A stretch of 64,000 nucleotides of DNA from Shewanella sp. CG12_big_fil_rev_8_21_14_0_65_47_15 (GTDB lineage Bacteria > Pseudomonadota > Gammaproteobacteria > Enterobacterales > Shewanellaceae): the NCBI RefSeq assembly GCF_002783505.1, contig NZ_PFGL01000001.1:62001-126000 (forward strand), in the 5' to 3' direction. The notes under the pieces are model-generated. The model ran no database searches and was not told the origin of the DNA. It saw nothing but the letters and a program-made list of their open reading frames with translations. The position numbers and the translations under genes were made by a program. Every line of letters begins with the position of its first letter. The first letter of the stretch is position 1. Below, one piece after another: positions 16,386 to 56,632 of this stretch.

Positions 16386-18808
16386 TAAGCAATGTGCTCC
16401 GCAGTGACACTCGCTACAATCGTCTGTCTCACTGAGGCTCTCAATAGGCCATTGGCTTGATCTCGAATGCGCTTAATATCAGATTTATCTTCTTTATCAG
16501 AAAGATAACCTAACTCTTTTAATTTAACACTTAAGGTACCGTAGAGTTTTTTATCGTAAAACTCCGGTGCAGTAATGCCGTGCAATGCCCCTAGACGTTG
16601 GGCAAGTAGATGGCTTTCGGACTCAAGTTCCGAGCGCTCCATCTTAGGTCTATGGGCTAACAAATTGAAAATAATTGCATAACGCTGCAAGGTTTCACTC
16701 ACAGAACCCGCCAGCAATAGCAACTGACTGGTGTGCACCGTCACGACCGATAAACCGTCTTGCTCAATCACAAAACCTTGCTCAACAAAGAGATCTAGCA
16801 CTTGATTCACATAGGCAGATAAATCTTTAATACCCATGAAAAGCTCGGCTTTTAACAGCGGATAAAAGTCATTCACTATTGCGAGGATCTGCTGCCGCTG
16901 AATTTGCTCATGGTTGGTCAAACAACTCGCAATCAATGAGGGAATAATAAATAAGTGAATAATGTTATTTCGATAGTAAGTCATAGAGATGGCTTGGCTT
17001 TCATCGATAGACACTATTTCACCTAAGGGATCGGCATTGATTGAAAATTTATTTAGCTCAAGGCCTTGCTGCACTAAATACTTACCATCGCCTTCGGCAA
17101 CCGAAGTGAAAGAAGTGTAAGGCACCCGCTTTAACAGAGTCAGATACAGGTCTAGCTGACGCTCAAGCAGGCAGCGCTCGAGGGCATTTTGCTCCGATGC
17201 CAATAACACTAAACTGGTGAGGGTGACAGAACTGGCCGCCGCGGCATCGTTAATGCGTGTCATCACCCGATTCGCTAGCACGTTGACCGCTGGCGTTAAC
17301 CAACTCGGTTTTTGTTCTGGATCATCGGCAAGCTCTGCCCGCCAATTAGGTGCCCGCTCATTTAAGAAATTTTGCAGCGTTATTGGCTCACCAAAGTTCA
17401 CATAACCTTGACCAAAATTACCTAATTTACGAATTGCCCCAAAGACTTGCCAAACAGACTCTTTCTGCTTTTTCTTACCGCTTAATTCTTTATGGTAAGT
17501 GGCCACTTCCATCACATGGTCATAGCCTAAGTACACAGGTACTAAAGTCACAGGACGCTCAATCCCGCGCAGCACACTGTTCATCGTCATCGCAATCATG
17601 CCAGTTTTGGGCGCCAACAGGCGACCCGTACGCGAACGGCCGCCTTCGGAGAAATATTCCACCGAATAGCCCTTAGCAAACAGTTGATCTAAATACTCAC
17701 GGAATACTGCGGTGTACAGTTTATTACCATTAAAACTGCGGCGAATGAAGAAGGCGCCACCACGGCGGAACAGTGGCCCAGCGGGCCAGAAATTGAGGTT
17801 AATGCCGGCGGCGATATGCGGCGGAACCATGCCTTGATAGTACAAAATATAGGATAACAACAGATAATCCATATGGCTGCGATGACAGGGCACATAAACA
17901 ATCTCGTGGCCATCGTGGTGCAACTGCCGAACTTGCTCGGCACCTTTAATGTTGATCCCGCTGTAAAGCTTGTTCCATAACCAAGTTAAGAAACGCTCGG
18001 CGATACGGACTAAACTGTCCGAGTAATTTGCCGCAATTTCATCTAAATATTCAATCGCAGTCTCACGGGCTTGGGTTTCAGAAATTTTCTTGCTGGACGC
18101 TTCTTCTTGAATGGCCTTACGCAGGGATTCTGACTTGAGTAACGAATGGAATAGCGCCTGACGATTGGGCAACACGGGCCCTGTCATTACCTTACGCTGA
18201 CGACGGAAATGCACCCGGGCAACACGCGCTAACTTATGGGCGATCCCCATATCTGTGCCATGTTCGTCGGCCATATAACGCAATGACACTGCATTCGAAA
18301 ATTGCACAAAATTATGCCGGCCTAAAAATAAAATCATCAAGCACTTGCGCAGCCAAGTCGGGTTTTCACGCTCCAGTACCGCCGCCTTCATAGTGTCGTC
18401 TTCTTTACCCGGCGTACGCCCCCAGTACAGGCTGACAGGCACCAATTGGATATCTAATTCAGGTCTTTCCTTATGTACAGCCAATAAGCGCATAAAGCAC
18501 TCTAGGAAAGGCGCATTACTGGCACGCTCACCAAACAATGGCTTGCGGCCTTCGAGGCAAACGACACGGGGAGCCACAACACCATTGACCACTAAGGGAT
18601 CGTAGGGACTGGGCAGCCCTAACTTTGCAGTGATTTCGCTCAATGCAGCAATATCACTGAGGGATTCTGTTTTCATCACATAAGCAAGGGGGCTGGAGGC
18701 ATCCAGATTCAGATCGGCAAAGGGATCCTGGGGCACCACAATAGTGTGCACTAAGTGTTTTTGGATCCAACGTAATGATTTCAACCAAAGAGAGTCTTGT
18801 TTAGGCAT
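16385..18808 (-). CDS. plsB: Glycerol-3-phosphate acyltransferase PlsB
   Basis: Inner-membrane enzyme making lysophosphatidic acid from glycerol-3-phosphate and acyl-ACP/CoA, the first step of phospholipid synthesis. Starting at MPKQDSLW it has 807 residues, the same length as E. coli PlsB. Acyltransferase blocks: HX4D in [37 protein letters not shown], and LVPVYLGYD. An upstream GTG at 18835 would add nine residues and has a poorer ribosome site. It is divergent from lexA, the same arrangement as plsB/lexA in E. coli. Confidence 0.96.
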
Positions 18809-37053: not shown

Positions 37054-37938
37054 ATGCTTCTTTACAATGCGCATCTGGCTAAACTTCAAGGACATGAAGT
37101 GCTTAGTATTAATCAGGACAAAAGATTATGGTTTATCGAACTGATTACCTGGTGGGAAGGCCGCATCAGCGCCAGTCACTTAATTCGGCAGTTTGGTATC
37201 AGCCGTACTCAGGCACAAAAAGACATTCTTTATTACCAACAGCTATTACCCGGCAATCTGCTTTATAACGCCAGTCATAAAGGGTTTCTGCCACAAACTG
37301 AATTTCAGCAAGGCTATATCTCCGGTGACGTAGTGGAATACCTGAATTGGGTCAGCCATCAGGACGCCATTGCAGACATAAGCACTGCTTTGCCATACAC
37401 CACCCTAGCTTTACCAAAACGCCAGGTAAACGCCGAAATTATTCGGGTATTGGTAACGGCTATCCGCCAACAACGCCGGGTAGAGGTAGATTATGTGTCT
37501 GTCAGCAACCCCGACCGCCAGGGCCGCATTATAGTGCCACATCATTTTGTCAGCGCTGGCTTACGCTGGCACCTTAGAGCCTTTTGCGAAAAATCAAATG
37601 GCTTTCGCGACTTTGTATTAAGTCGCTTTCGTGGTGTACCTGACTTGCTGAATAAAACCAATATCGGCGCCGGACAAGACCCCGGCTGGATCACTGAACT
37701 TTGTTTAGCATTCCAGCCCGACCCACGTTTAACACCAGCCCAACAAGAGGTGCTGGCCCACGACTATCAAATGCAAAATGGCAAACTCCACATCCACAGC
37801 CGCGCCTGCTTAGCCCAATACGTGCTACAGGAAATGCAGGTTAACATCCGCGATATCGACATCAGCCCCGAAGCCCAGCAACTGGTTTTAGTGAACCACA
37901 GCGATATAAAGCCTTGGCTATTTGACGAAAAATCATAA
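37054..37938 (+). CDS. WYL-domain transcriptional regulator (CapW/BrxR-like)
   Basis: 294 residues. Residues about 24-80 form a winged-helix domain (RLWFIELITWWEGRISASHLIRQFGISRTQAQKDILYYQ in pattern). A WYL domain spans about 140-210 (RRVEVDYVSVSN, IIVPHHFVSAGLRWHLRAFCEKSNGFRDFVLSRF), and a WCX-like C-terminus follows. This order and the wHTH pattern match dimeric repressors that guard CBASS and BREX islands (CapW, BrxR). WYL domains are thought to sense nucleic acid or nucleotides. It precedes cas3 on the same strand and is a likely regulator of the island. The first 20 residues may be extra; an alternative start near residue 20 is possible. Confidence 0.88.
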   Translation: MLLYNAHLAKLQGHEVLSINQDKRLWFIELITWWEGRISASHLIRQFGISRTQAQKDILYYQQLLPGNLLYNASHKGFLPQTEFQQGYISGDVVEYLNWVSHQDAIADISTALPYTTLALPKRQVNAEIIRVLVTAIRQQRRVEVDYVSVSNPDRQGRIIVPHHFVSAGLRWHLRAFCEKSNGFRDFVLSRFRGVPDLLNKTNIGAGQDPGWITELCLAFQPDPRLTPAQQEVLAHDYQMQNGKLHIHSRACLAQYVLQEMQVNIRDIDISPEAQQLVLVNHSDIKPWLFDEKS

Positions 37939-38164: not shown

Positions 38165-40873
38165 ATGACTGAAACACTCGCAGCTGGCTATTTTGGTTAT
38201 TGGGGCAAAGCCAAGAAAGACCCTGACCAAGCCGGGCCGGATTATCATTTACTGGTTTATCATAGTTTGGATGTGGCGGCTGTGGGGTGGAGTTTGTTGA
38301 ACCCTAACAATAAGTTGTGCCAAGAGTTGGCAGAATTTATTCAACTTAGCCCCAAACAGCTGCAGCGCTTATTTACCTTTGCCTTGGTACTGCATGACTT
38401 GGGCAAGTTTAGTGGCGCTTTTCAGGCGTTAAAGCTGTTTGATACACCAGCTTTACACCAATTTAAGGTGCGCAGGCCTTATGATGGCGCCAAAGCCCGG
38501 CATGATATGTTGGGCTTGGTGTTGTGGCAAATAGCGTTGGAAGAAGGTTTAGACCTGCCGCAATTAACAAAGCAATCGCTGTCGCAAGATGAGTTAGATG
38601 ACGTGCTTTGTACGCTGTTGGATACCACTTGGGGCCATCATGGTAAGCCCATTAGACCCGGTCGTTTAGGGGAGTTGGAAGATCACTTAGCTGACGCCAA
38701 TATTCTTCATGCCAAGAGCTTTATTGAAGATGCAGCAAACTTACTGCAGCCAGAGTGGCCTGCAGCTTTTTTTACAGCTGAAGTACAGCAATGTTTTCGC
38801 CAAATCAGCTGGCACCTGGCGGGTGTAGCGATACTCGCCGATTGGTTGGGCTCAGATACCCGCCACTTTCCTTATCAGGCTGAAGTAATCAGCCTTGCAT
38901 CATACTGGCCTAAAGCTTTAGCAAAAGCAGAAGGAGCTGTGGCCGCAACAGATTTATTTAAGCCATTTAATGTGCAGCCATTTAGTAATTTTCAGCAGCA
39001 GTTTGGTTTTACACCTACGCCATTACAACAATGGGCGGCGACAGTGCCGCTTGCAGCGGGGCCACAGCTGTTTATTCTGGAAGACGTTACTGGCTCAGGT
39101 AAAACAGAAGCAGCACTTACATTAACGCAGCGCATTATGGCAGCTGATCAAGCCGATGGTTTTTACTTTGGCTTGCCCTCTATGGCGACATCGAATGCCA
39201 TGTTTAAACGCGTCACGTCACACTATCAGCACATGTATCAGGGCGGTGCGCCAAGCATAGTGCTGGCGCATGGTGGCAGAGACATGGAGCAAGCGTTTAG
39301 AGACTTACTGTTGCCCAGTAGTGCAGGTGATGCCAACTATCAATCTGACGAGCAAACCGCTACAGCGGTGTGTAATGAATGGTTTGCTGATTCGCGTAAA
39401 AAAGCCTTATTAGCGCCGGTTGGGGTGGGCACCTTAGATCAGGCGTTGTTGGCGGTGTTACCCCGGCGGCATCAGGCCCTGCGCATGATTGGCTTGCACC
39501 GTAAGGTGCTTATTTTTGATGAAGTACATGCCGCTGATGAATACATGCTGGTGCTATTGCAAGACTTACTGCAATTACATGCCAGGCAAGGTGGCAGCGT
39601 AATTTTGCTCACGGCAACACTGGCGCAGCAGCAGCGGCAGCAATTGGTCAGGCGCTGGCTTGATGTGTTGGGGCAGCCTGAGCTAATCGATTGTAGCGAT
39701 GATTTTCCGTTAGCGACTCAAGTCAGTATGGTCGGAATGCAACAAGCCGCTTTGGCCTCTCGACCTGATGTATGCCGTACTCTGAAAGTTGCTTTTTTGC
39801 ATAGTGTCGAAAACTGTGTTGCCACCATCGTCGAGGCTGTGGCAAGAGGCCAATCGGTGGTATGGATTTGTAACTCTGTAGGGGATGCTTTGGCTGCATA
39901 TAATGAGGTGTCGGCAGCGTTACCAGAACCAGCGCAATGCCTGATATTCCATAGCCGCTTTGCCTTAATAGACCGGCAAAGAATTGAGCGACAGGTACTA
40001 AGCACCTTAGGTAAGCAATCCACAGCAATTGAACGCAAAGGCAAGGTAGTAATCTCAACTCAGGTGTTTCAGGAGAGCCTGGACGCAGACGCAGATTTAA
40101 TGATTTCTGATCTGTGCCCAATTGATGATTTAATTCAACGTGCAGGCCGTCTGCATCGGCATACCCGCGATGCTAATGGCAGTTATCAGGCTGGGATAGC
40201 AGATCAACGGCCGGCACCGGTGCTATATGTACATAGCCCGGAGTTTACTAACTCACCTAATGCAGATTGGCTATCGGCGCAATTTCGCAATACGCAGTTG
40301 GTGTATCGCTCGCCGGGTAAACTATGGCTGGGGCTACGCGTGTTAACTGAACAGCACGCTATCCGGATGCCGGAGGATGCCAGATTGCTGATTGAAGCCG
40401 TGTACGGAGAGCACGCCAGCAAAGAAATCCCCGAGACTTTGTGGCAAGACGAACTTATGCATCATGGTGAAATTCAGCGAAAAACCAACAAAGCCATGCA
40501 GCAAGTCATTGATTGGTATCAAGGTTATTGCGCAGACAGTGCCGTAAAGTGGTATGAAGATGAAACGGATATCAGTACCCGCTACAGCGATATGGAAACT
40601 ATCGAAGTTGTGTTGTTAAAACGTGGCGACGCCGGACAAATCAGGTTATGGGCAGATGGCCAGGCTTATGCATTGGCTCTAAGTAAATTAAAACTGCCAA
40701 AACACCATGCCGATAAGTTAGCGGATTTTTCCGCTCAGTACCCTGAGCAAGCAGAGCAATTTAAACAACAATATCGGCAGGCAAAATATACCCGCTTTTG
40801 GCTGGCCGAGGATGATCCTAATTTCAGTTACTCAGCACTGATTGGTTTCAACCCAAAAGAAAACCCCGCCTAA
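38165..40873 (+). CDS. cas3: CRISPR-associated nuclease/helicase Cas3 (type I-E)
   Basis: Effector recruited by Cascade to nick and degrade target DNA. 902 residues: HD nuclease domain first (LDVAAVGW, VLHDLGKFSGAF with His77-Asp78, RHDMLGLVLW, TWGHHGKP). The SF2 helicase follows, with Walker A VTGSGKTEAAL, SMATSNAMFKR, DEVH in LIFDEVHAADEY, LLTATLAQQQR, and motif VI QRAGRLHRH. AAGGA precedes the ATG. The stop codon lies in the loop of a CCCCGC/GCGGGG hairpin that also forms part of the mini-CRISPR unit read from the other strand. Separated from the Cascade genes by about 500 bases with its own promoter. Confidence 0.97.
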   Translation: MTETLAAGYFGYWGKAKKDPDQAGPDYHLLVYHSLDVAAVGWSLLNPNNKLCQELAEFIQLSPKQLQRLFTFALVLHDLGKFSGAFQALKLFDTPALHQFKVRRPYDGAKARHDMLGLVLWQIALEEGLDLPQLTKQSLSQDELDDVLCTLLDTTWGHHGKPIRPGRLGELEDHLADANILHAKSFIEDAANLLQPEWPAAFFTAEVQQCFRQISWHLAGVAILADWLGSDTRHFPYQAEVISLASYWPKALAKAEGAVAATDLFKPFNVQPFSNFQQQFGFTPTPLQQWAATVPLAAGPQLFILEDVTGSGKTEAALTLTQRIMAADQADGFYFGLPSMATSNAMFKRVTSHYQHMYQGGAPSIVLAHGGRDMEQAFRDLLLPSSAGDANYQSDEQTATAVCNEWFADSRKKALLAPVGVGTLDQALLAVLPRRHQALRMIGLHRKVLIFDEVHAADEYMLVLLQDLLQLHARQGGSVILLTATLAQQQRQQLVRRWLDVLGQPELIDCSDDFPLATQVSMVGMQQAALASRPDVCRTLKVAFLHSVENCVATIVEAVARGQSVVWICNSVGDALAAYNEVSAALPEPAQCLIFHSRFALIDRQRIERQVLSTLGKQSTAIERKGKVVISTQVFQESLDADADLMISDLCPIDDLIQRAGRLHRHTRDANGSYQAGIADQRPAPVLYVHSPEFTNSPNADWLSAQFRNTQLVYRSPGKLWLGLRVLTEQHAIRMPEDARLLIEAVYGEHASKEIPETLWQDELMHHGEIQRKTNKAMQQVIDWYQGYCADSAVKWYEDETDISTRYSDMETIEVVLLKRGDAGQIRLWADGQAYALALSKLKLPKHHADKLADFSAQYPEQAEQFKQQYRQAKYTRFWLAEDDPNFSYSALIGFNPKENPA

Positions 40874-40945
40874 GCGGGGAACGTCTTGCTGTTTTACGTG
40901 ATGCATTGCATCAATGCGGTTTATCTCTGCGAAGCGGAGAAGTAA
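40856..40945 (-). ncRNA. Degenerate one-spacer mini-CRISPR (crRNA-like RNA, CreA/CreR-like)
   Basis: Read leftward: repeat-like element 1 (40917-40945) ends in GATAAACCG, identical to the last nine bases of the array repeat, with a degenerate stem. Then come exactly 32 bases (40885-40916), the spacer length of this array. Repeat-like element 2 (40856-40884) keeps CGTTCCCCG and CGGGG at exact array spacing but loses the handle; its CCCCGC/GCGGGG hairpin is followed by TTTTCTTTT, so it can terminate transcription. A TTGAAA-17 bp-TATTCT promoter ends just before element 1. What is seen is repeat identity and spacing. Function as a Cascade guide is inference. The stem of element 1 contains one C-A mismatch, so Cas6e cleavage is uncertain. 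Confidence 0.72.
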
Positions 40946-40947
40946 CA

Positions 40948-40976
40948 AGAATACGCTGACGCCTGTATACTTTCAA
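40948..40976 (-). promoter_or_regulatory. sigma70-like promoter of the mini-CRISPR
   Basis: Minus strand TTGAAA (complement of 40971-40976), 17-base spacer, TATTCT (complement of 40948-40953). A transcript would start near 40940-40943, at the edge of repeat-like element 1. Confidence 0.6.
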
Positions 40977-40979
40977 TGT

Positions 40980-41014
40980 TGCTTTGATAATTTTGATGCA
41001 TTGCATCAATGCTT
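40980..41014 (-). promoter_or_regulatory. Protospacer-like target of the mini-CRISPR with AAG PAM
   Basis: Positions 40994-41011 on the minus strand are identical to the first 18 bases of the mini-CRISPR spacer (CATTGATGCAATGCATCA). They are preceded 5' by AAG (complement of 41012-41014), the canonical type I-E PAM. Beyond base 18 the match is lost. Partial, seed-side pairing with a good PAM is what allows Cascade binding without destruction. The site lies between two divergent promoters. Confidence 0.68.
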
Positions 41015-41023
41015 AATCAATTA

Positions 41024-41052
41024 TTGATTTGTTCATTTTGCGAGCGTATAGT
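41024..41052 (+). promoter_or_regulatory. Promoter of the cas8e operon
   Basis: TTGATT (41024-41029), 17 bases, TATAGT (41047-41052), with an AT-rich upstream stretch. Expected start near 41059. Its -35 is ten bases from the PAM of the mini-CRISPR target. Confidence 0.65.
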
Positions 41053-41053
41053 C

Positions 41054-41198
41054 GTTCTTGTACCTGAGAAGTGGAGCGTAAATGAGGCAGCTTCACCCCA
41101 AGAACGCTCACGAGTGGAACCGTTGATACTACTTGGTTTAGGTATGGCTTGCAACATGGCCTAGTCAGAGTCCTCTATCACCTTTTGAGGACAATAAA
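41054..41198 (+). ncRNA. Structured 5' leader of the cas8e operon with a 14-codon uORF
   Basis: GTTCTTG (41054-41060) pairs with CAAGAAC (41099-41105), enclosing GTGGAGC (41071-41077) with GCTTCAC (41090-41096). TAGG (41139-41142) can pair with CCTA (41160-41163), and GTCCTC (41170-41175) pairs perfectly with GAGGAC (41187-41192). A 14-codon frame, MRQLHPKNAHEWNR, spans 41082-41126 with GGAG upstream. The last hairpin buries the ribosome site of the next gene. Pairing is seen; folding in the cell and any named RNA class are not established. Confidence 0.5.
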
Positions 41199-41327
41199 AT
41201 GCTGAAATCAAATGATGATTACATTGTTATTTTTAGGCGCTACAAGAAAGACAAGTCTGGTCAGTTGTTAGACGCTAGAAAATATGGATTAAAGGCCTGG
41301 CCGATAAAAATCCGTAAGTCTGCTTAA
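41199..41327 (+). CDS. Conserved-looking 42-residue basic protein at the head of the Cascade operon
   Basis: ATG at 41199 eight bases after GAGG, stop at 41327. 42 residues, rich in Lys and Arg (MLKSNDDYIVIFRRYKKD, then RKYGLKAWPIKIRKSA). It has no membrane segment and no cysteine. The pattern strand-KDKSGQLLDA-YGLKAWPI recalls very small proteins found on mobile elements whose function is unknown; that comparison is from memory. It is co-directional with cas8e, 51 bases upstream, under the same promoter. Possible roles (regulator, small toxin guarded by the crRNA-like unit, anti-phage accessory) are speculation. Confidence 0.6.
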   Translation: MLKSNDDYIVIFRRYKKDKSGQLLDARKYGLKAWPIKIRKSA

Positions 41328-41378
41328 CGAATAAAAGGTGTGGCGCTAAACCCGCCACTCCTTTCATCAGGAGGATGG

Positions 41379-43001
41379 ATGAACTTACTTTTTGACTCAT
41401 GGTTACCAGTGCGTTTGCATAGTGGCGAGCAACGCACTGTCTGCTTTAACCAACTAATCGATTCCAATATTGCTGACTTTGCTTTTCCGCGAGCTGATTT
41501 TCAGGGGGCTGCGTATCAGTTTTCTATCGGTGTGCTACAAACCTTATTTGCACCAGATAATGAAACGCAATGGTTGCTTAGCTATCAGCAAACTCCGAGG
41601 CTGCAAGAATTAACTGCAGCACTGGAAAAGGGGCGTCATGCTTTCGAGTTAATCGCAGAATCTGCGAAAGCCACCCGTTTTATGCAGGATTATGATCCGC
41701 TTGAGCAAGCGGAAGCAGGGCCTATATCCGGGCTATTAATTGAAGCGCCGGGAGCTAATGCGTTAAAGCTTAATACCGATCATTTTATTAAGCGTGGGTT
41801 ATGCAATCAGATTTCTTTGCCTATGGCAGCCATTGCCTTATTTACACTGCAAATTAATGCGCCATCCGGTGGTCAGGGCCATCGCACTGGCTTGCGCGGC
41901 GGCGGGCCGCTGACGACTTTAGTGTTGCCGCACACTGTCAATGCTAGCTTATGGCAAAAGCTTTGGTTAAATGTGCTAAGCCGGGAAAAATTCAAATATG
42001 ACGAGCCGGATTTACACAGTTCAGTGGTATTCCCCTGGCTTAGCCCAACCAAAGAGAGCAAGCAAAAAGGCACTGAAGTGTACGAAAAAGATGTACATCC
42101 GCTGCATATGTACTGGGCTATGCCACGTCGTATCAGGCTGGAAGTACAACAAGGCAGCGCCATTTGTGATTTAGACGGCACTGAGTGCCAGCAGTTTGTT
42201 ACTGGCTACCGCACACAAAACTACGGCTACAACTACAGCGGCAGTTGGTGGCATCCTTTAACTCATTACCGTATTAACCCGAAAAAGCCGGATGAAGATA
42301 ATTTGTCGACTAAAGGCCAGCCAGGCGGTATCAGCTATAAATACTGGCAAGCCCTGACTTTACTCGATGAGGAAGAGGGCAGCATTCCGGCAAAAGTTGT
42401 CAGCGTTTATAACCCCGATAGAGCAAAGTTACTTGGTGCTGGGCGTAGAGGCGAATATCAGCGGCTTTGGGCTTTTGGTTACGATATGGACAATATGAAA
42501 GCCCGTGGTTGGTATTCAACTGAGTTGCCATTATTTAACTTAACCTCGAGTCAGCGCGAAACCCTGCTCAAGCATGTAAAAGTTGTGCAGCAACTGGCAG
42601 CAGAAGCCTTGTGGCAGTGTCGCACCCAAATCAAATCTGCCTGGTTTAGCCATCCTGGTGATGTAAAAGGCGATACCTCCTTTATTGATCTGCAGTTTTG
42701 GCAACGTACAGAGCAGGCCTTTTATCACACCATTGCCACTATGCTGGCGGATGAAAACAGTGCTGAGCCGTTAACTCCTGAAGCCGCATTAAGCTGGTTG
42801 TTAGCACTTAAACGCACCGCCACAGATTTATTCGATGAACTGGTGTTGTCGGGCAGTGACAGTCATAAGCATATGGCACGTTTTATTCAATCCCGCCGTG
42901 CCCTTACCGGGTGGCTGGCTAAAGGTAAAGCGATACAGAGTTATAAGCAGTTCTATCAAATTCTCAATTCAGATGAACACAAGCAGGAGGCTAAAGCATG
43001 A
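41379..43001 (+). CDS. casA: Cascade large subunit Cas8e (Cse1/CasA)
   Basis: Large subunit of type I-E Cascade that reads the PAM and recruits Cas3. 540 residues from MNLLFDSWLPVRLHSGEQ, the usual Cse1 opening; AGGAGG five bases upstream fixes the start (a GTG at 41340 is upstream in frame). Family sequences include HRTGLRGGGPLTTLV (L1-loop area), YWAMPRRIRLE, and SWWHPLTHYRINPKKPDE. The C-terminal four-helix bundle is about 400-540. Overlaps casB by four bases (ATGA). Confidence 0.95.
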   Translation: MNLLFDSWLPVRLHSGEQRTVCFNQLIDSNIADFAFPRADFQGAAYQFSIGVLQTLFAPDNETQWLLSYQQTPRLQELTAALEKGRHAFELIAESAKATRFMQDYDPLEQAEAGPISGLLIEAPGANALKLNTDHFIKRGLCNQISLPMAAIALFTLQINAPSGGQGHRTGLRGGGPLTTLVLPHTVNASLWQKLWLNVLSREKFKYDEPDLHSSVVFPWLSPTKESKQKGTEVYEKDVHPLHMYWAMPRRIRLEVQQGSAICDLDGTECQQFVTGYRTQNYGYNYSGSWWHPLTHYRINPKKPDEDNLSTKGQPGGISYKYWQALTLLDEEEGSIPAKVVSVYNPDRAKLLGAGRRGEYQRLWAFGYDMDNMKARGWYSTELPLFNLTSSQRETLLKHVKVVQQLAAEALWQCRTQIKSAWFSHPGDVKGDTSFIDLQFWQRTEQAFYHTIATMLADENSAEPLTPEAALSWLLALKRTATDLFDELVLSGSDSHKHMARFIQSRRALTGWLAKGKAIQSYKQFYQILNSDEHKQEAKA

Positions 43002-47881: not shown

Positions 47882-50800
47882 CCGTTCCCCGTAAGCACGG
47901 GGATAAACCGCTGCCTTTCATCTTTACCGCTTTAGCGTGAATCCGTTCCCCGTAAGCACGGGGATAAACCGCATGGCTTGGTGTGCATACAGGATTGAAT
48001 CACCCGTTCCCCGTAAGCACGGGGATAAACCGCTTGTCTGCGTAGGCGGCTAACGACAAATTAGCCGTTCCCCGTAAGCACGGGGATAAACCGGCGATCG
48101 AGTGTATGGATTATCGGATATTAAACCGTTCCCCGTAAGCACGGGGATAAACCGGTACGTGACGTTTTTGGCATGAGTGCCGACGGCCGTTCCCCGTAAG
48201 CACGGGGATAAACCGTACTCAACATGGACCCTGCAGACTTAGTGCAGCCGTTCCCCGTAAGCACGGGGATAAACCGCAACTCGCGGACAAGTTTTTAAAT
48301 TCTATGGCCCGTTCCCCGTAAGCACGGGGATAAACCGCGAGAAGTTCGCGCCAGTAAACGGACAAGTAACCGTTCCCCGTAAGCACGGGGATAAACCGCT
48401 AAACCAGAAAACCAAGGTAAAGTATTCAAACCGTTCCCCGTAAGCACGGGGATAAACCGGTATCTATTCATTTAGTTACGAAAAAACAGACCCGTTCCCC
48501 GTAAGCACGGGGATAAACCGCAGCTAGAGCATTAGCCCTAGCGAAAAAAGAACCGTTCCCCGTAAGCACGGGGATAAACCGTAGGTAAAACCTTTAAACA
48601 CGATGGTCCAGTTCCGTTCCCCGTAAGCACGGGGATAAACCGTTACTTGCAGCAAATGGTTTTGAAATTCCGGACCGTTCCCCGTAAGCACGGGGATAAA
48701 CCGCGTTTGGGGCGTTACGCGGGTTAGTTATCTGTCCGTTCCCCGTAAGCACGGGGATAAACCGTATTTGCCTATCGTGAAATGCACTTGGTTGCGCCGT
48801 TCCCCGTAAGCACGGGGATAAACCGCACTGCATCAGCCAGGCGTTAATAACGTCAACCCGTTCCCCGTAAGCACGGGGATAAACCGTCGCTATTGAGCTC
48901 GCTGCCATTGCCAAAAAACCGTTCCCCGTAAGCACGGGGATAAACCGTTCAGCTCTTTAAGGGTGTAACCATAGGGAACCCGTTCCCCGTAAGCACGGGG
49001 ATAAACCGCCGCTGGTGCTGGTGAGCTATCTAATGTATTGCCGTTCCCCGTAAGCACGGGGATAAACCGCGCATAGACCAACTTTTGTCGAACATGACGG
49101 CCCGTTCCCCGTAAGCACGGGGATAAACCGTTTGACGTGCTTAACAAGCTGGCCTCGGCAATCCGTTCCCCGTAAGCACGGGGATAAACCGCAATTTATA
49201 GGTGATCTGCCAATAGTGGCTTACCGTTCCCCGTAAGCACGGGGATAAACCGTAACATTAAAAAATCAAATAACCTCACATTAACCGTTCCCCGTAAGCA
49301 CGGGGATAAACCGTTTTGGATAAAAATGTTTTCAATCATGACTTGCCGTTCCCCGTAAGCACGGGGATAAACCGCTTATACAGCCATATTGACCATGTTG
49401 AATAAGCCGTTCCCCGTAAGCACGGGGATAAACCGCCTAGATTGATTATCTGAGCCAGACACAGAGCCCGTTCCCCGTAAGCACGGGGATAAACCGCACA
49501 ATGAACCGAGCTGTCCGTTCATTATTCGCCGTTCCCCGTAAGCACGGGGATAAACCGTCGTATTCAGTGCAATTTTTTTCTTTATCTAACCGTTCCCCGT
49601 AAGCACGGGGATAAACCGTTATCTAGAACCCACCATAGAAAATCTTTGCACCGTTCCCCGTAAGCACGGGGATAAACCGTGTCTAGATACTCTAATATCT
49701 GCTTTACTCATCCGTTCCCCGTAAGCACGGGGATAAACCGTGTGGATGAATCACCCCTTTCATCGCGGCGAACCGTTCCCCGTAAGCACGGGGATAAACC
49801 GCGTACTGGATAAAGGCTTGCTGGTTTATATTGCCGTTCCCCGTAAGCACGGGGATAAACCGTTACAGTATCATTTTTACCTTGTGGAGCTACGCCGTTC
49901 CCCGTAAGCACGGGGATAAACCGCAATACGGGCCCAGAATAATGAGCAATTTGCACCGTTCCCCGTAAGCACGGGGATAAACCGCAGATCACTTTAGATC
50001 GTGCGGCCACCATTGCCCGTTCCCCGTAAGCACGGGGATAAACCGTCATCGTTAACTTTAACGTGAGGCGGATTGTGCCGTTCCCCGTAAGCACGGGGAT
50101 AAACCGCAAGTTCCGTCACTCAGAATGACGACTAAAAACCGTTCCCCGTAAGCACGGGGATAAACCGTTGAGACTATCCTTATCCATCGTCCGGAAGTGC
50201 CGTTCCCCGTAAGCACGGGGATAAACCGCTTGTATTTCTGCGTATTCACGCAGCAGCGAACCGTTCCCCGTAAGCACGGGGATAAACCGTATGGCGGGTG
50301 ACATTACCGTGCCCGAGCCTACCGTTCCCCGTAAGCACGGGGATAAACCGCTGGAATAGCCATATTAATCCTTACCAAGGCCCCGTTCCCCGTAAGCACG
50401 GGGATAAACCGCAAACTTAACGGATATTCAAAAGGCTGAGGACCCGTTCCCCGTAAGCACGGGGATAAACCGCATATTTTATGTCGTGCGGATATCCGAT
50501 TTAACCGTTCCCCGTAAGCACGGGGATAAACCGATGGCACAGCACTCCCGCCATATTAAGTACTGCCGTTCCCCGTAAGCACGGGGATAAACCGCATACT
50601 CAACAACATGACGCAGTTCGGCACAGCCGTTCCCCGTAAGCACGGGGATAAACCGTCATCACCCAAGGCGGGCGCTAATTTTTCCCACCGTTCCCCGTAA
50701 GCACGGGGATAAACCGTCACCCACGACGGCGCCAACACTTACGGCGAACCGTTCCCCGTAAGCACGGGGATAAACCGCTAAAATCTAGGAAGAAGTAGTG

Positions 50801-53800
50801 CGACCTTGACCGTTCCCCGTAAGCACGGGGATAAACCGTCAAATGCCAGCAATAACGGCACGGTGGGCGACCGTTCCCCGTAAGCACGGGGATAAACCGC
50901 CTGGTACAGCGAAGACGTGAACGACGTCAGTCCGTTCCCCGTAAGCACGGGGATAAACCGCAATCGCCGTGCTTAGAGATATGCTCGTCCAACCGTTCCC
51001 CGTAAGCACGGGGATAAACCGTCGGAAACCTTATAAACGCCGTGAATAAACGGCCGTTCCCCGTAAGCACGGGGATAAACCGCCCTTCTCACAGCCAAAT
51101 ACACCCGTATTGCGCCGTTCCCCGTAAGCACGGGGATAAACCGTACAAGAGGCCGCAGCGCAAAAAGACGAGTCCCCGTTCCCCGTAAGCACGGGGATAA
51201 ACCGATCAGTATTTTGCTGACAGAGAAGCTATTTACCCGTTCCCCGTAAGCACGGGGATAAACCGCACTTTTTCCGCTAATTGCTTTGCTTCAATTGCCG
51301 TTCCCCGTAAGCACGGGGATAAACCGATTCTAGCCGCGCTCGCATACTGTGAGCAGTCCCGTTCCCCGTAAGCACGGGGATAAACCGCTACCCAACAGGG
51401 ATATATATTGATGAAAAAACCGTTCCCCGTAAGCACGGGGATAAACCGCAAGGACGGCGCTAGTGACCTTAATAATGATGCCGTTCCCCGTAAGCACGGG
51501 GATAAACCGGAATTTAACCCGATGAAAACCAGTACCCGCAACCGTTCCCCGTAAGCACGGGGATAAACCGTTGTGCGCTTATGACTGATTTGCATTATTA
51601 GACCGTTCCCCGTAAGCACGGGGATAAACCGCACCTCAACCTATTCGGTGATGGTCAAAACTGCCGTTCCCCGTAAGCACGGGGATAAACCGCCCGCATT
51701 GCCGCAGCGGAACTCTGTATACCGCCGTTCCCCGTAAGCACGGGGATAAACCGGATCCGTTATGACGTTATATGAGTACGATAACCCGTTCCCCGTAAGC
51801 ACGGGGATAAACCGTCGCGGGCCGATAACCCGGTCATGATGTCAAGCCGTTCCCCGTAAGCACGGGGATAAACCGTGTACGTGGTCACGCCGTTGGCACC
51901 GGCAACACCGTTCCCCGTAAGCACGGGGATAAACCGGTTTAGCCCCTGATACCCAATATTGGTTTTGGCCGTTCCCCGTAAGCACGGGGATAAACCGTGC
52001 TGTCCTTTGGCGATTTGATTAACGTCAACCCGTTCCCCGTAAGCACGGGGATAAACCGTTAATTGCCTGAAATACCGTTCCACCGGTTTCCCGTTCCCCG
52101 TAAGCACGGGGATAAACCGCAAATCGATGTGGAGGACGTTTGGGGTATTGGCCGTTCCCCGTAAGCACGGGGATAAACCGCCCTATATTTGTTCGCGTCC
52201 AAGTGCTTACCACCGTTCCCCGTAAGCACGGGGATAAACCGGACTCTTATGAGTCCTCTTCGCAAGGTGCGCACCGTTCCCCGTAAGCACGGGGATAAAC
52301 CGTTGCGCAGCGCGGGGTACAGGCTGGTCTATGACCGTTCCCCGTAAGCACGGGGATAAACCGTTTATACGGGCGATAAAAAGACCCTTGAAGCCCCGTT
52401 CCCCGTAAGCACGGGGATAAACCGCTATTAAGGAGCTTTGTTATGCTGCAAAGCAACCGTTCCCCGTAAGCACGGGGATAAACCGTCATGTTAATACTGG
52501 TTACTTATCGGGTTTGCCCGTTCCCCGTAAGCACGGGGATAAACCGCGACTTGAGATTGATTTGCTGGCTGTGGAGATCCGTTCCCCGTAAGCACGGGGA
52601 TAAACCGTCATTCACAGCATTGTAAAATGACGATTTGCCCCGTTCCCCGTAAGCACGGGGATAAACCGCCAAAAATAGGTTTGCTCCCTCATGCACGATA
52701 CCGTTCCCCGTAAGCACGGGGATAAACCGCCCCATTGGGAATGACGTTGTTTAAATTTTTGCCGTTCCCCGTAAGCACGGGGATAAACCGCCCGGACGCA
52801 ATTTATATTGGCAAGTTGGCTACCGTTCCCCGTAAGCACGGGGATAAACCGCCACCTTCTGCCTTGACTCGTTGTAGTCCTTCCCGTTCCCCGTAAGCAC
52901 GGGGATAAACCGTCAGGTACTTCCGTGTCATCAGCATGACGATGCCGTTCCCCGTAAGCACGGGGATAAACCGGGAAAGAAACAGGGATAGTTACGCAGA
53001 AAGAACCGTTCCCCGTAAGCACGGGGATAAACCGCCTATCCAGTGCTCACACCGGTACAGCATGAACCGTTCCCCGTAAGCACGGGGATAAACCGCGGTT
53101 AAACTGCTTATCAAAAAACACCATCAACCGTTCCCCGTAAGCACGGGGATAAACCGTGCGCCGAGTAGTACAACCCATCCGAATGTAACCGTTCCCCGTA
53201 AGCACGGGGATAAACCGCCTCAATGGACAATTCAAAAAGCCTGGCAACCCCGTTCCCCGTAAGCACGGGGATAAACCGGTAAGAATTTCTGTTCAGTATC
53301 ATAAGCACGACCGTTCCCCGTAAGCACGGGGATAAACCGCTGTCGGTCGAGAATATGTCGAGGAAGTCGAGCCGTTCCCCGTAAGCACGGGGATAAACCG
53401 GTCACACCGTAAAATATCATGATGCCCGTGGTCCGTTCCCCGTAAGCACGGGGATAAACCGCATTATGAGAAATTTGAACTCGATACCAGTATCCGTTCC
53501 CCGTAAGCACGGGGATAAACCGGTTAGCAATCAAAAGCGGGTTAACCCTGATGACCGTTCCCCGTAAGCACGGGGATAAACCGTGGTAGCCAATGCCGTA
53601 CCGCTTCAAATAGGGCCGTTCCCCGTAAGCACGGGGATAAACCGGGGCCGAATCACTCGCCAAGTTTTTCAATTGGCCGTTCCCCGTAAGCACGGGGATA
53701 AACCGTCGAGCGTGACACGGTCAGCCTGTGGGACTCGCCGTTCCCCGTAAGCACGGGGATAAACCGCCAACTGGCATAAACACGCTGCCTATTTTGATCC

Positions 53801-56632
53801 GTTCCCCGTAAGCACGGGGATAAACCGAATGCCATTTGCTCTCTTGTCCATCTGATGCGCCGTTCCCCGTAAGCACGGGGATAAACCGGCACTGCTGGCT
53901 GCACAGTCTTTACTCGGTGTCCGTTCCCCGTAAGCACGGGGATAAACCGCATGGCGGCAAATTATCTGCCCCTGAATATTACCGTTCCCCGTAAGCACGG
54001 GGATAAACCGCCTGCTTACCTTTGTGTACTACGCCCAAATCACCGTTCCCCGTAAGCACGGGGATAAACCGATTACAGTTTCTCAGGTGCCTACAATCAT
54101 TGGCCGTTCCCCGTAAGCACGGGGATAAACCGGTAATGAGGTTGATGAGTTCGGTGGTTTTACGCCGTTCCCCGTAAGCACGGGGATAAACCGCTGCAGT
54201 AAGACTGCATAGCTCTCAAGCTCAGCCGTTCCCCGTAAGCACGGGGATAAACCGCATCCGAGCAATAAAATTGTTATCAATCTCATCCGTTCCCCGTAAG
54301 CACGGGGATAAACCGCTGCTCTAGCACTAATCTATCCGATGCAGCACCCGTTCCCCGTAAGCACGGGGATAAACCGGCCGAGGCGCAGCGATTGAAAGCT
54401 GTTTCAGACCGTTCCCCGTAAGCACGGGGATAAACCGTCACTCTGCACCAATGGCTAGACTTGTTTGAGCCGTTCCCCGTAAGCACGGGGATAAACCGCC
54501 CTTTAGAACGTTGTTTTAACTCATACTTTTCCGTTCCCCGTAAGCACGGGGATAAACCGGAGTTGAATACCAAGGCGTAGGCTGCAAGCTACCGTTCCCC
54601 GTAAGCACGGGGATAAACCGAAAATTGTTGCGTGTAGTCCTACTGTTGACGGCCGTTCCCCGTAAGCACGGGGATAAACCGGTTATTGAATTGGCCACAG
54701 CTTATGTTGCTGGCCGTTCCCCGTAAGCACGGGGATAAACCGTATTACGAACTTATGAAATGTGTTTAGCTCATCCGTTCCCCGTAAGCACGGGGATAAA
54801 CCGTCGGACTGATATTGAATGGAAGGGTGCTGCACCGTTCCCCGTAAGCACGGGGATAAACCTGATTACGTCTTCCAAACTTTAGCGGCGCAGGCCCGTT
54901 CCCCGTAAGCACGGGGATAAACCGCACCAAGACCTTCAACATTGATTTGGCTTGAGCCGTTCCCCGTAAGCACGGGGATAAACCGCGCACCCCCGTTAAG
55001 GCGCGGCCTATGATTGGCCGTTCCCCGTAAGCACGGGGATAAACCGCAGCCGTGGCGCTCGGAATATTTTGGACTCGGCCGTTCCCCGTAAGCACGGGGA
55101 TAAACCGACCCTGATGCGTTGGGCTCATATCTGCGTGAACCGTTCCCCGTAAGCACGGGGATAAACCGCCCACTACCTCGCCATCGACTACCGCAACAAA
55201 CCGTTCCCCGTAAGCACGGGGATAAACCGCTGGTAGGCTTCGCGAGCTTCGTGGTTGTCGACCGTTCCCCGTAAGCACGGGGATAAACCGTCCAGCCCCT
55301 TCAGTGCGGTAAAACTCAATTACCGTTCCCCGTAAGCACGGGGATAAACCGGAAATGGCCAATATCAATGCTGGCCGACCTAACCGTTCCCCGTAAGCAC
55401 GGGGATAAACCGGAACTCTGCGGCCTCTTGCTTAGCAGAAATAACCGTTCCCCGTAAGCACGGGGATAAACCGGTCTGCGCTGTTATTCATGGCGCTGCC
55501 CGCTACCGTTCCCCGTAAGCACGGGGATAAACCGGTTCGAGTGCTAATGCCAACATTTTCAGATAACCGTTCCCCGTAAGCACGGGGATAAACCGCCAAC
55601 ATACTGTTTTTTTAAACAGTAAAGGGTCCGTTCCCCGTAAGCACGGGGATAAACCGGATGGTATTGATGGTATTGACGGCATTAATGGCCGTTCCCCGTA
55701 AGCACGGGGATAAACCGGTTTCTGTTCAACCTGATGGTCAAACTGATTGCCGTTCCCCGTAAGCACGGGGATAAACCGGACGGCGGCCAATCCATCGATA
55801 TTTATAACACCCGTTCCCCGTAAGCACGGGGATAAACCGATGCCATGGCGTTGTAACCTGTATCGCTTACACCGTTCCCCGTAAGCACGGGGATAAACCG
55901 GTCGGAGTAACTGCAGACGGTAAATACTATGGCCGTTCCCCGCAAGCACGGGGATAAACCGCTGCCGCGAACGCAGCTCAACAAGGCGTTACGCCGTTCC
56001 CCGTAAGCACGGGGATAAACCGCCCATTACTGAGCCAGTTGCGACGCGCATCGGCCGTTCCCCGTAAGCACGGGGATAAACCGCGTCTTGCTCTGACTTA
56101 GTTAGTTTTGGCATACCGTTCCCCGTAAGCACGGGGATAAACCGCATTGGCCGCGATTGCGCCCATTGATATTGGGCCGTTCCCCGTAAGCACGGGGATA
56201 AACCGCAACTCAGCATTGTTAGCTTTAGCTTCTTTTACCGTTCCCCGTAAGCACGGGGATAAACCGCAATAAAATCATTACCGGACATAATGATCACACC
56301 GTTCCCCGTAAGCACGGGGATAAACCGCCAAACACGGAGACGCATTGCTGATGAGAAATCCGTTCCCCGTAAGCACGGGGATAAACCGCGTTCGGGCTGA
56401 TTGTAGCCCTTTTTATTTCACCGTTCCCCGTAAGCACGGGGATAAACCGCTTTCCGGCTTTGCGGTTGATGGTGTGGAGGGCCGTTCCCCGTAAGCACGG
56501 GGATAAACCGTGTGGGGCTTTGTCGAGTGGAATGCCGAAGGCCCGTTCCCCGTAAGCACGGGGATAAACCGCAGCAAATATTTTCAACCCGTAGCGTTGG
56601 CGACCGTTCCCCGTAAGCACGGGGATAAATAG
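47882..56632 (+). CRISPR. Type I-E CRISPR array, 144 repeats and 143 spacers
   Basis: 29-base repeat opening CCGTTCCCCGTAAGCACGGG and ending GATAAACCG, with period 61. By hand count there are 144 repeats; all spacers are 32 bases except spacer 114 (31), which accounts exactly for the 8,751-bp length. The stem is CCCCG/CGGGG. Orientation is that of the crRNA, rightward, leader at the left. Variants: repeat 115 (starts 54835) ends in T instead of G; repeat 133 (starts 55933) has C for T at position 11; the last repeat (56604) ends TAG instead of CCG, the usual degenerate leader-distal repeat. Near-uniform repeats and an intact cas set suggest a live system. Confidence 0.99.

Follow-up and report, generated by a model that had tools for sequence, protein, structure and literature searches.

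A one-spacer CRISPR element between cas3 and cas8e

The stretch of DNA analysed here, 64,000 nucleotides from Shewanella sp. CG12_big_fil_rev_8_21_14_0_65_47_15 (assembly GCF_002783505.1, contig NZ_PFGL01000001.1, positions 62,001 to 126,000; the window), carries a type I-E locus of clustered regularly interspaced short palindromic repeats (CRISPR). Between its cas3 and cas8e genes lie a degenerate one-spacer mini-CRISPR, a site matching part of its spacer, two predicted promoters, a structured RNA and a small open-reading frame (ORF), as listed in Table 1. An earlier reading of the sequence alone (the original prediction) had described the mini-CRISPR as a minus-strand element with an intact handle, a 32-base spacer and a second repeat, and all three were found at 40856-40945. 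The first repeat, psiR1, is identical to the array repeat at 15 of 29 positions and at all of the final eight, while psiR2, called a terminator by a consensus scan, overlaps the last codons and the stop of cas3. Exact copies of the handle number 144 in the window: 142 in the main array (47902-56571, downstream of cas2), one in psiR1 and one at 16749. The handle-bearing element with its degenerate repeats sits apart from that array.

Table 1 Features of the cas3-cas8e region (positions in the window)
Feature	Position	Strand	Basis
cas3	38165..40873	+	gene of the type I-E locus
psiR2, ACGTTCCCCGCTTAGGCGGGG and T-run, hairpin CCCCGC-TTAG-GCGGGG	40856..40884	-	repeat-derived, terminator-like
psiS, spacer of exactly 32 nt, nt 1-18 matching the target	40885..40916	-	sequence match
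psiR1, degenerate type I-E repeat TTACTTCTCCGCTTCGCAGAGATAAACCG, 5′ handle GATAAACCG intact	40917..40945	-	repeat comparison
Predicted guide promoter, TTGAAA-17-TATTCT	40948..40976	-	consensus scan
Protospacer, matched part 40994-41011, AAG motif 41012-41014	40980..41014	-	sequence match
Predicted promoter of the cargo unit and, by read-through, cas8e, TTGATT-17-TATAGT	41024..41052	+	consensus scan
Structured RNA, three-way junction	41058..41168	+	fold and covariation, common to 6 loci
Hairpin GTCCTC/GAGGAC over the probable ribosome-binding site for FRRY	41170..41192	+	read from sequence, fold
42-aa FRRY protein (name coined in this analysis)	41199..41327	+	ORF, conservation
Hairpin between cargo and cas8e, weak T-run	41340..41358	+	fold of stretch, -15.6 kcal/mol
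cas8e, first Cascade gene	41380..43001	+	re-called start

The first 18 spacer bases recur, as had been noted, next to a 5′-AAG protospacer-adjacent motif (PAM), with the match at 41011-40994 and the PAM at 41014-41012, so that a partial seed match adjoins AAG beside a predicted promoter. None of 5000 shuffled seeds matched as well, 1 of 1154 mock spacers did (all gap positions tried, true spacer included), and the 15-bp core TGATGCAWTGCATCA occurs, with at most one mismatch, at two places in the 4.7-Mb genome, the spacer and the target. The original prediction had set this site next to the -35 elements of both promoters, and the adjacency holds with slightly altered distances: the PAM lies 9 bases, not 10, from the TTGATT at 41024, and the far edge of the full 32-nt protospacer lies 3 bases, not 4, from the guide TTGAAA (40976-40971), which is 17 bases away from the last matched target base. 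Both promoters are consensus matches only, of which 3 were found in 700 bases against 1.3 expected in shuffles. The plus-strand promoter faces cas8e, with the cargo (the structured RNA and FRRY) and a hairpin in between.

Guide and target recur across type I-E loci

The best 80 of at least 548 Cas7e-encoding stretches in the genome collection were taken as relatives (numbered L), and in 74 of these the arrangement between cas3 and cas8e could be compared with that of the window, giving 75 loci in all; the other six lacked cas3 or cas7 on the available stretch. By Cas7e, the nearest among the matches listed are L012, a metagenome bin (93%), and L011, which is Rheinheimera sp. SA_1 (86%). Starts of cas8e were re-called across loci because the first calls had produced false gaps, the original start being kept in 10 of 75 loci, including L073 and L076. 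The cas3-cas8e gap measures less than 100 bp in 49 loci and 126 bp or more in 26. A guide (the mini-CRISPR unit) and a seed-matched AAG site were present in the locus's own gap in 24 of the 26 gap-bearing loci, with seeds that mostly differ, and the PAM of the target was AAG in all 24. In the 49 loci with a short gap, which offers little space if any, the guide-target detector found nothing.

The 24 guide loci comprise the window and 19 relatives found by the detector, three from an earlier seed scan (L036, L078, L080) and one recognised by eye (L053). The detector thus missed four accepted loci, and for L080 its own pair was wrong and the seed-scan pair was used. The target of L078 and L080 lies on the opposite strand relative to the other loci. 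Spacer length, taken from the best psiR2 spacing, is 33 nt in L011 and L076 and 32 nt in the other detector loci. Applied to 2.5 million strand-bases elsewhere in the surveyed loci, a similar detector gave six matches, which by eye look chance-like in L023 and L052 and real in L024, L025, L039 and L071. The latter are one-spacer mini-CRISPRs upstream of cas3 (at about 3615, 3756, 3851 and 4763, respectively), each with a seed-matched AAG site close by; their hosts are Xenorhabdus and one Desulfuromonadaceae bin.

Spacer-target pairing was tabulated for 23 non-redundant loci, omitting L015 as a near-copy of L013. All 23 pair at each of positions 1-5, 7, 8, 10 and 11, 21 pair at position 9 and 22 at position 13, while pairing drops to 9 loci at position 6 and 7 at position 12, then fades over positions 14-18 (19, 18, 16, 12 and 10 loci) to background beyond. 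The counts at 1-5 and 7-11 are biased because sites were selected on those positions; positions 6 and 12-18 played no part in the choice. Shuffled seeds reached 9 of 10 in 17 of 4800 trials, and seeds set against the gaps of other loci reached 9 in 12 of 552 comparisons, every one of which involved similar loci matching each other reciprocally, in six pairs. Eight sister pairs, compared at positions 1-5 and 7-11, show six compensated differences (window/L011 at 1 and 3, L022/L030 at 10, L062/L075 at 7 and 10, L073/L076 at 5) and two one-sided ones, both at position 9 (L023/L028 and L064/L065). The covariation of seed and target among I-E loci to which the original prediction had pointed is thus present, in the 24 of 26 gap loci as in the six compensated differences.

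Cascade is reported to flip out every sixth guide base (PMC5904413), and the gathering of mismatches at positions 6 and 12, together with seeds and targets that change together, makes a protein operator unlikely. As read from these alignments, the pairing pattern is the one that recognition by Cascade predicts, unlike that of a protein operator, and we are highly confident that, across the group, selection for recognition by Cascade acts on the guide, the target, the PAM and the pattern of pairing. In 21 of the 24 guide loci, a sigma-70-like promoter facing cas8e was predicted. Its -35 lies from 11 bp inside to 10 bp beyond the PAM/protospacer edge in 18 of the 21 loci scored and 19-21 bp from the target in L023, L028 and L036; the promoter rule yielded none in L022, L062 and L075.

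Cargo between the promoter and cas8e

The fold of the structured RNA is supported by covariation among its six loci, with double changes in 12 of 25 pairs compared to 5.2 ± 1.5 in shuffles and 85.3% of cells pairing compared to 74.7 ± 1.9 (slid versions never exceeded 49.3%); less telling is the number of further pair types, which 44 of 500 shuffles also reached. A model built on the six loci found no others among 58 sources, part of the surveyed loci. At E <= 0.01 it matched 3 of 394 genomes of the order, namely the window's own, G1081 (taken as the genome of L028) and G963, where the match falls within a polA-like gene of the opposite strand and was judged to be chance. An Rfam match to FsrA at 41284 was discarded, its 23.6 bits falling short of the gathering score of 80. 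A 14-codon ORF at 41082, beginning ATG AGG, was considered as a rare-codon minigene of the haloarchaeal CreT kind and set aside because three relatives read by eye (L011, L014 and L028) lack it. The terminator scan made no plus-strand call for the hairpin at 41340..41358; a hairpin precedes cas8e in all eight stretches chosen for folding.

FRRY, whole or as a remnant, is present in the gaps of the window, L011, L013, L014, L015, L028, L062 and L075, and over 38 codon positions compared with L011, 17 are the same, 18 synonymous and 3 non-synonymous. Pfam and NCBIfam searches gave no match, a search of the PDB with a predicted fold (mean pLDDT, the predicted local distance difference test, 81.7; pTM, the predicted template modelling score, 0.43) gave none at E <= 0.001, and no FRRY was found in the plasmid and phage collections. 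Eleven database relatives were found, and FRRY-like ORFs turned up in 2 of 369 genomes searched in the class, 5 of 398 in the phylum and 6 of 394 in the order; each count includes the window's own genome, and some genomes recur between counts. Outside CRISPR, five of seven FRRY-like loci adjoin toxin-antitoxin-type genes (XRE/ImmA-IrrE, HigB or HipBA). In L093, L102 and L112, the relative stands beside XRE and ImmA/IrrE genes, with Pfam M78 in all three and a helix-turn-helix domain found by Pfam in L093 and L112 and by eye in L102; in L098, it stands beside HigB and a helix-turn-helix protein with a sub-threshold M78 match; and in L100, HipBA is convergent with it. No toxin-antitoxin-type genes were seen beside the FRRY-like ORFs of L099 and L101, the latter being the weakest match (E 8.7e-4), which may not be a relative.

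Other cargo occupies the same slot elsewhere. A short hydrophobic peptide is alike in seven gap loci (L055, L060, L073, L076, L078, L080 and L089), those of the other six being 33-86% to that of L078 (7271-7381), which has no NCBIfam match and no Pfam match above the cut-off and, from its sequence, looks like a small membrane toxin; the kinship of a hydrophobic peptide in L036 (27%) is doubtful. HicB and HicA genes lie in the gaps of L078 and L080 and HicB in that of L073 (Pfam), and HicBA was recognised by eye in L074. The place of the FRRY front is taken in L013 (7398-7616) and L015 by a 72-aa protein, NGDHEVH...CHTS.

Elsewhere in the window, a KilA-N ORF (PF04383, 46126-46575) lies between cas6e and cas1, starting 25 bp after cas6e, and homologues occur in L011, L012, L014, L029, L031, L037, L045 and L061, whether or not a guide is present. 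KilA-N is, according to a review, the usual toxin domain of CreP; no CrePA arrangement, in which the KilA-N gene has a CreA-targeted promoter to itself, was seen, the 15-bp seed core being unmatched near this ORF at up to 3 mismatches.

A like element in E. coli K-12

The 414-bp cas3-casA gap of E. coli K-12 MG1655 (L114, 8140-8553) has a like layout of guide, spacer and target: a repeat-like element with an intact handle, identical at 19 of 29 positions to the repeat, is followed by 32 nt and by a second element bearing CATTCCCG. An AAG site matches 14 of the first 16 spacer positions, with misses at 6 and 9. An equally good match came from 1 of 5000 shuffled seeds and from 1 of the 968 mock spacers, which included the true one. 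Among five further E. coli records (L115-L119), L116, L117 and L118 show misses at 6, 9 and 12 with the rest matched up to 17; in L115, a strain with a casA pseudogene carrying an annotated internal stop, there are additional misses at 14 and from 16; and L119 has an IS1 element in place of most of the gap and casA. The K-12 gap is matched in 1126 of 5426 E. coli genomes. Just downstream of cas3, a divergent promoter repressed by H-NS, anti-Pcas, has been described as giving rise to an RNA of 150-200 nt (PMC10011333, PMC7074321), whose role a 2023 review calls unknown (PMC10011333). From its position, the K-12 guide would correspond to the anti-Pcas RNA; searches for anti-Pcas among open-licence papers showed no such role for it.

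Proposed mechanism and alternative explanations

Taken together, the best overall explanation is probably that the element encodes a guide of the CreA/CreR type that represses the adjacent promoter. Going by the anatomy, the minus-strand promoter would give rise to a short RNA ending in psiR2, which Cas6e would trim at the handle and Cascade would load like a CRISPR RNA (crRNA); the loaded complex would then bind at the AAG site, 9 bp ahead of the -35 of the plus-strand promoter. Cas3 cutting should stay unlicensed because pairing ends near position 18, and the bound complex would bar RNA polymerase from the promoter. Once open, the promoter would transcribe the structured RNA and FRRY and then, beyond a hairpin possibly acting as a leaky terminator, cas8e together with the remaining Cascade genes. 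A fall in free Cascade, whether caused by many crRNAs, anti-CRISPR proteins or a broken cas gene, would open it, so that Cascade rises and the cargo is expressed. We infer production of the RNA, repression and toxicity alike; CRISPR may in this manner turn its own expression on and off, and perhaps that of a guarded toxin as well.

That Cascade charged with the guide RNA acts on a promoter, as originally proposed, is supported by the covariation, the AAG and the dips at positions 6 and 12 over 23-24 loci. As objects of repression the proposal had named either the cas8e operon and/or the guide itself or else a guarded toxin. In most of the loci scored, the target adjoins the plus promoter. Since the cargo unit lies between this promoter and cas8e, autoregulation of cas and a guarded toxin are compatible, and both are possibly true here. 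We rate repression of the plus promoter by guide-loaded Cascade as probable, whereas we see an even chance that the cargo of FRRY and RNA is a guarded toxin, as opposed to a leader that does no harm.

Several observations weigh against repression of the promoter by the guide. In E. coli, short-seed off-target binding of Cascade is reported to leave transcription unaffected, and promoter repression, as cited in the same paper, drops sharply with as few as 6 PAM-distal mismatches (PMC5904413); in the window, 14 distal spacer positions fall outside the matched run, and Cascade would sit upstream of the -35, not over it. The window pairs at both 6 and 12, so the mark of the flipped bases is absent from the window alone. 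L066 and L074 have a gap in which no guide was seen, and L012, the closest relative by Cas7e among the matches listed, has no gap, indicating that the guide unit is dispensable. The distance from target edge to cas8e is 36 bp in L053, 52 in L030, 103 in L064 and 104 in L065, leaving little room for cargo. The K-12 promoter beside the target (TTGCAG-17-TATTGT) was read by eye and not called by the scan, which found one promoter-like site there with 3.1 expected, and the terminator scan found none in the K-12 region.

Those four loci nearly devoid of cargo also favour a pure CreR arrangement, in which the guide autorepresses the cas8e operon only and the RNA and FRRY are an untoxic leader or an unrelated passenger. 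CreRs have been described for type I-E (PMC13131331), and L023, by eye, has kept guide, target and promoter, while the RNA, FRRY and the hairpin, all retained in its sister L028, are mostly gone. Loss of cargo is, however, also the route by which an addiction module would decay, and the mostly synonymous substitutions in FRRY, the recurrence of cargo in the slot and the hairpin before cas8e in the eight folded stretches, as expected of a separate gene unit, speak against this arrangement. Autorepression without a toxin is a serious contender, though somewhat short of an even chance. That the guide chiefly represses its own promoter is improbable: the far edge of the protospacer is 3 bp from the guide -35 in the window and L036 has a second seed match closer to the guide, but the plus promoter is the one abutted by the target in most loci scored, and in L013 the guide promoter lies, by eye, far from the target.

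Decay of an orphan array with a functionless self-targeting spacer would account for the degenerate repeats and for a match unbroken over 18 nt in the window, yet the same position is occupied in 24 loci with covarying seeds, and we regard this explanation as very improbable. Hardly any weight, and marginally less still, is left for TTGATGCATTGCATCAA as a palindromic protein operator, for instance for the WYL regulator (37054-37938), with an incidental likeness to CRISPR. In the window, spacer and target share an almost perfect palindrome, and the WYL-domain gene lies upstream of cas3, but other loci combine unrelated seeds with the same geometry, AAG and dips at 6 and 12, WYL homologues occur in guide-less loci (L012, L018, L019, L020, L041, L045 and L068), a search at E <= 1e-4 gave none in guide-bearing loci, L073, L078 and L089 among them, and the core is confined to two places in the genome, though a purely local regulator needs no further copy. 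The operator was rejected on these grounds.

A wider version of repression by guide-loaded Cascade is more tentative, and we would put it at rather less than an even chance: the cas3-cas8e gap would be a general slot in which a divergent crRNA-like guide keeps Cascade on a cargo promoter, the cargo being the structured RNA with FRRY, a hydrophobic peptide, HicBA or the cas operon alone; the K-12 anti-Pcas RNA would be the guide of this slot, controlling Pcas; and FRRY would be a guarded toxin of a new class, common to this slot and to XRE-ImmA/IrrE modules. The comparative rule used here (place, AAG, gaps at 6 and 12, adjoining promoter) finds candidate Cascade-run switches in I-E loci, gives the anti-Pcas RNA of E. 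coli a testable role and adds two cargo candidates, the structured RNA and a 42-aa protein family.

Relation to known systems

CreRs are reported for types I-B, I-E and V-A (PMC13131331), reportedly by Liu et al. in 2023, whose work may well treat E. coli. In reviews, CreRs of these three types are crRNA-like RNAs with a partial match to a cas promoter and effector-dependent autorepression, features that the guide proposed here would share. A close likeness is to the I-E CreTA of Citrobacter rodentium, in which a Cascade-repressed toxin in the cas3-casA gap was demonstrated experimentally (PMC12055562, Nat Microbiol 2025). There, too, the guide is intergenic (in a gap of 495 bp) and on the opposite strand, a partial match beside a PAM lies at the UP element of the promoter, and a small ORF separates promoter and casA. 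Its PAM, however, is ATG where ours is AAG, and its 96-bp ORF is described as lacking homology to annotated sequences and is told apart from FRRY by description only, whereas the cargo here is a structured RNA and FRRY with relatives beyond CRISPR loci.

The I-F CreTA of Acinetobacter, experimentally a CRISPR-repressed toxin, likewise occupies a cas3-csy1 gap that only some species have, with the guide divergent from a mini-ORF and the target between them, and differs in its type, its 33-bp ORF and its CC PAM (PMC10097628). The haloarchaeal I-B CreTA shares two degenerate repeats, a seed match at positions 1-5 and 7-11 and a second repeat that may yield to a terminator, but its guide and toxin lie elsewhere in the locus and the toxin sequesters rare tRNAs (PMC8501985). 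Given the I-E CreRs and the C. rodentium and Acinetobacter precedents, the guide of the window belongs to a known kind, and it is the cargo that sets this variant apart; as far as we have seen in open-licence papers, with no search aimed at the FRRY family or the RNA, three things are new: the cargo of RNA and FRRY, the different or missing cargo of this slot in other loci, and the presence of the element in E. coli K-12.

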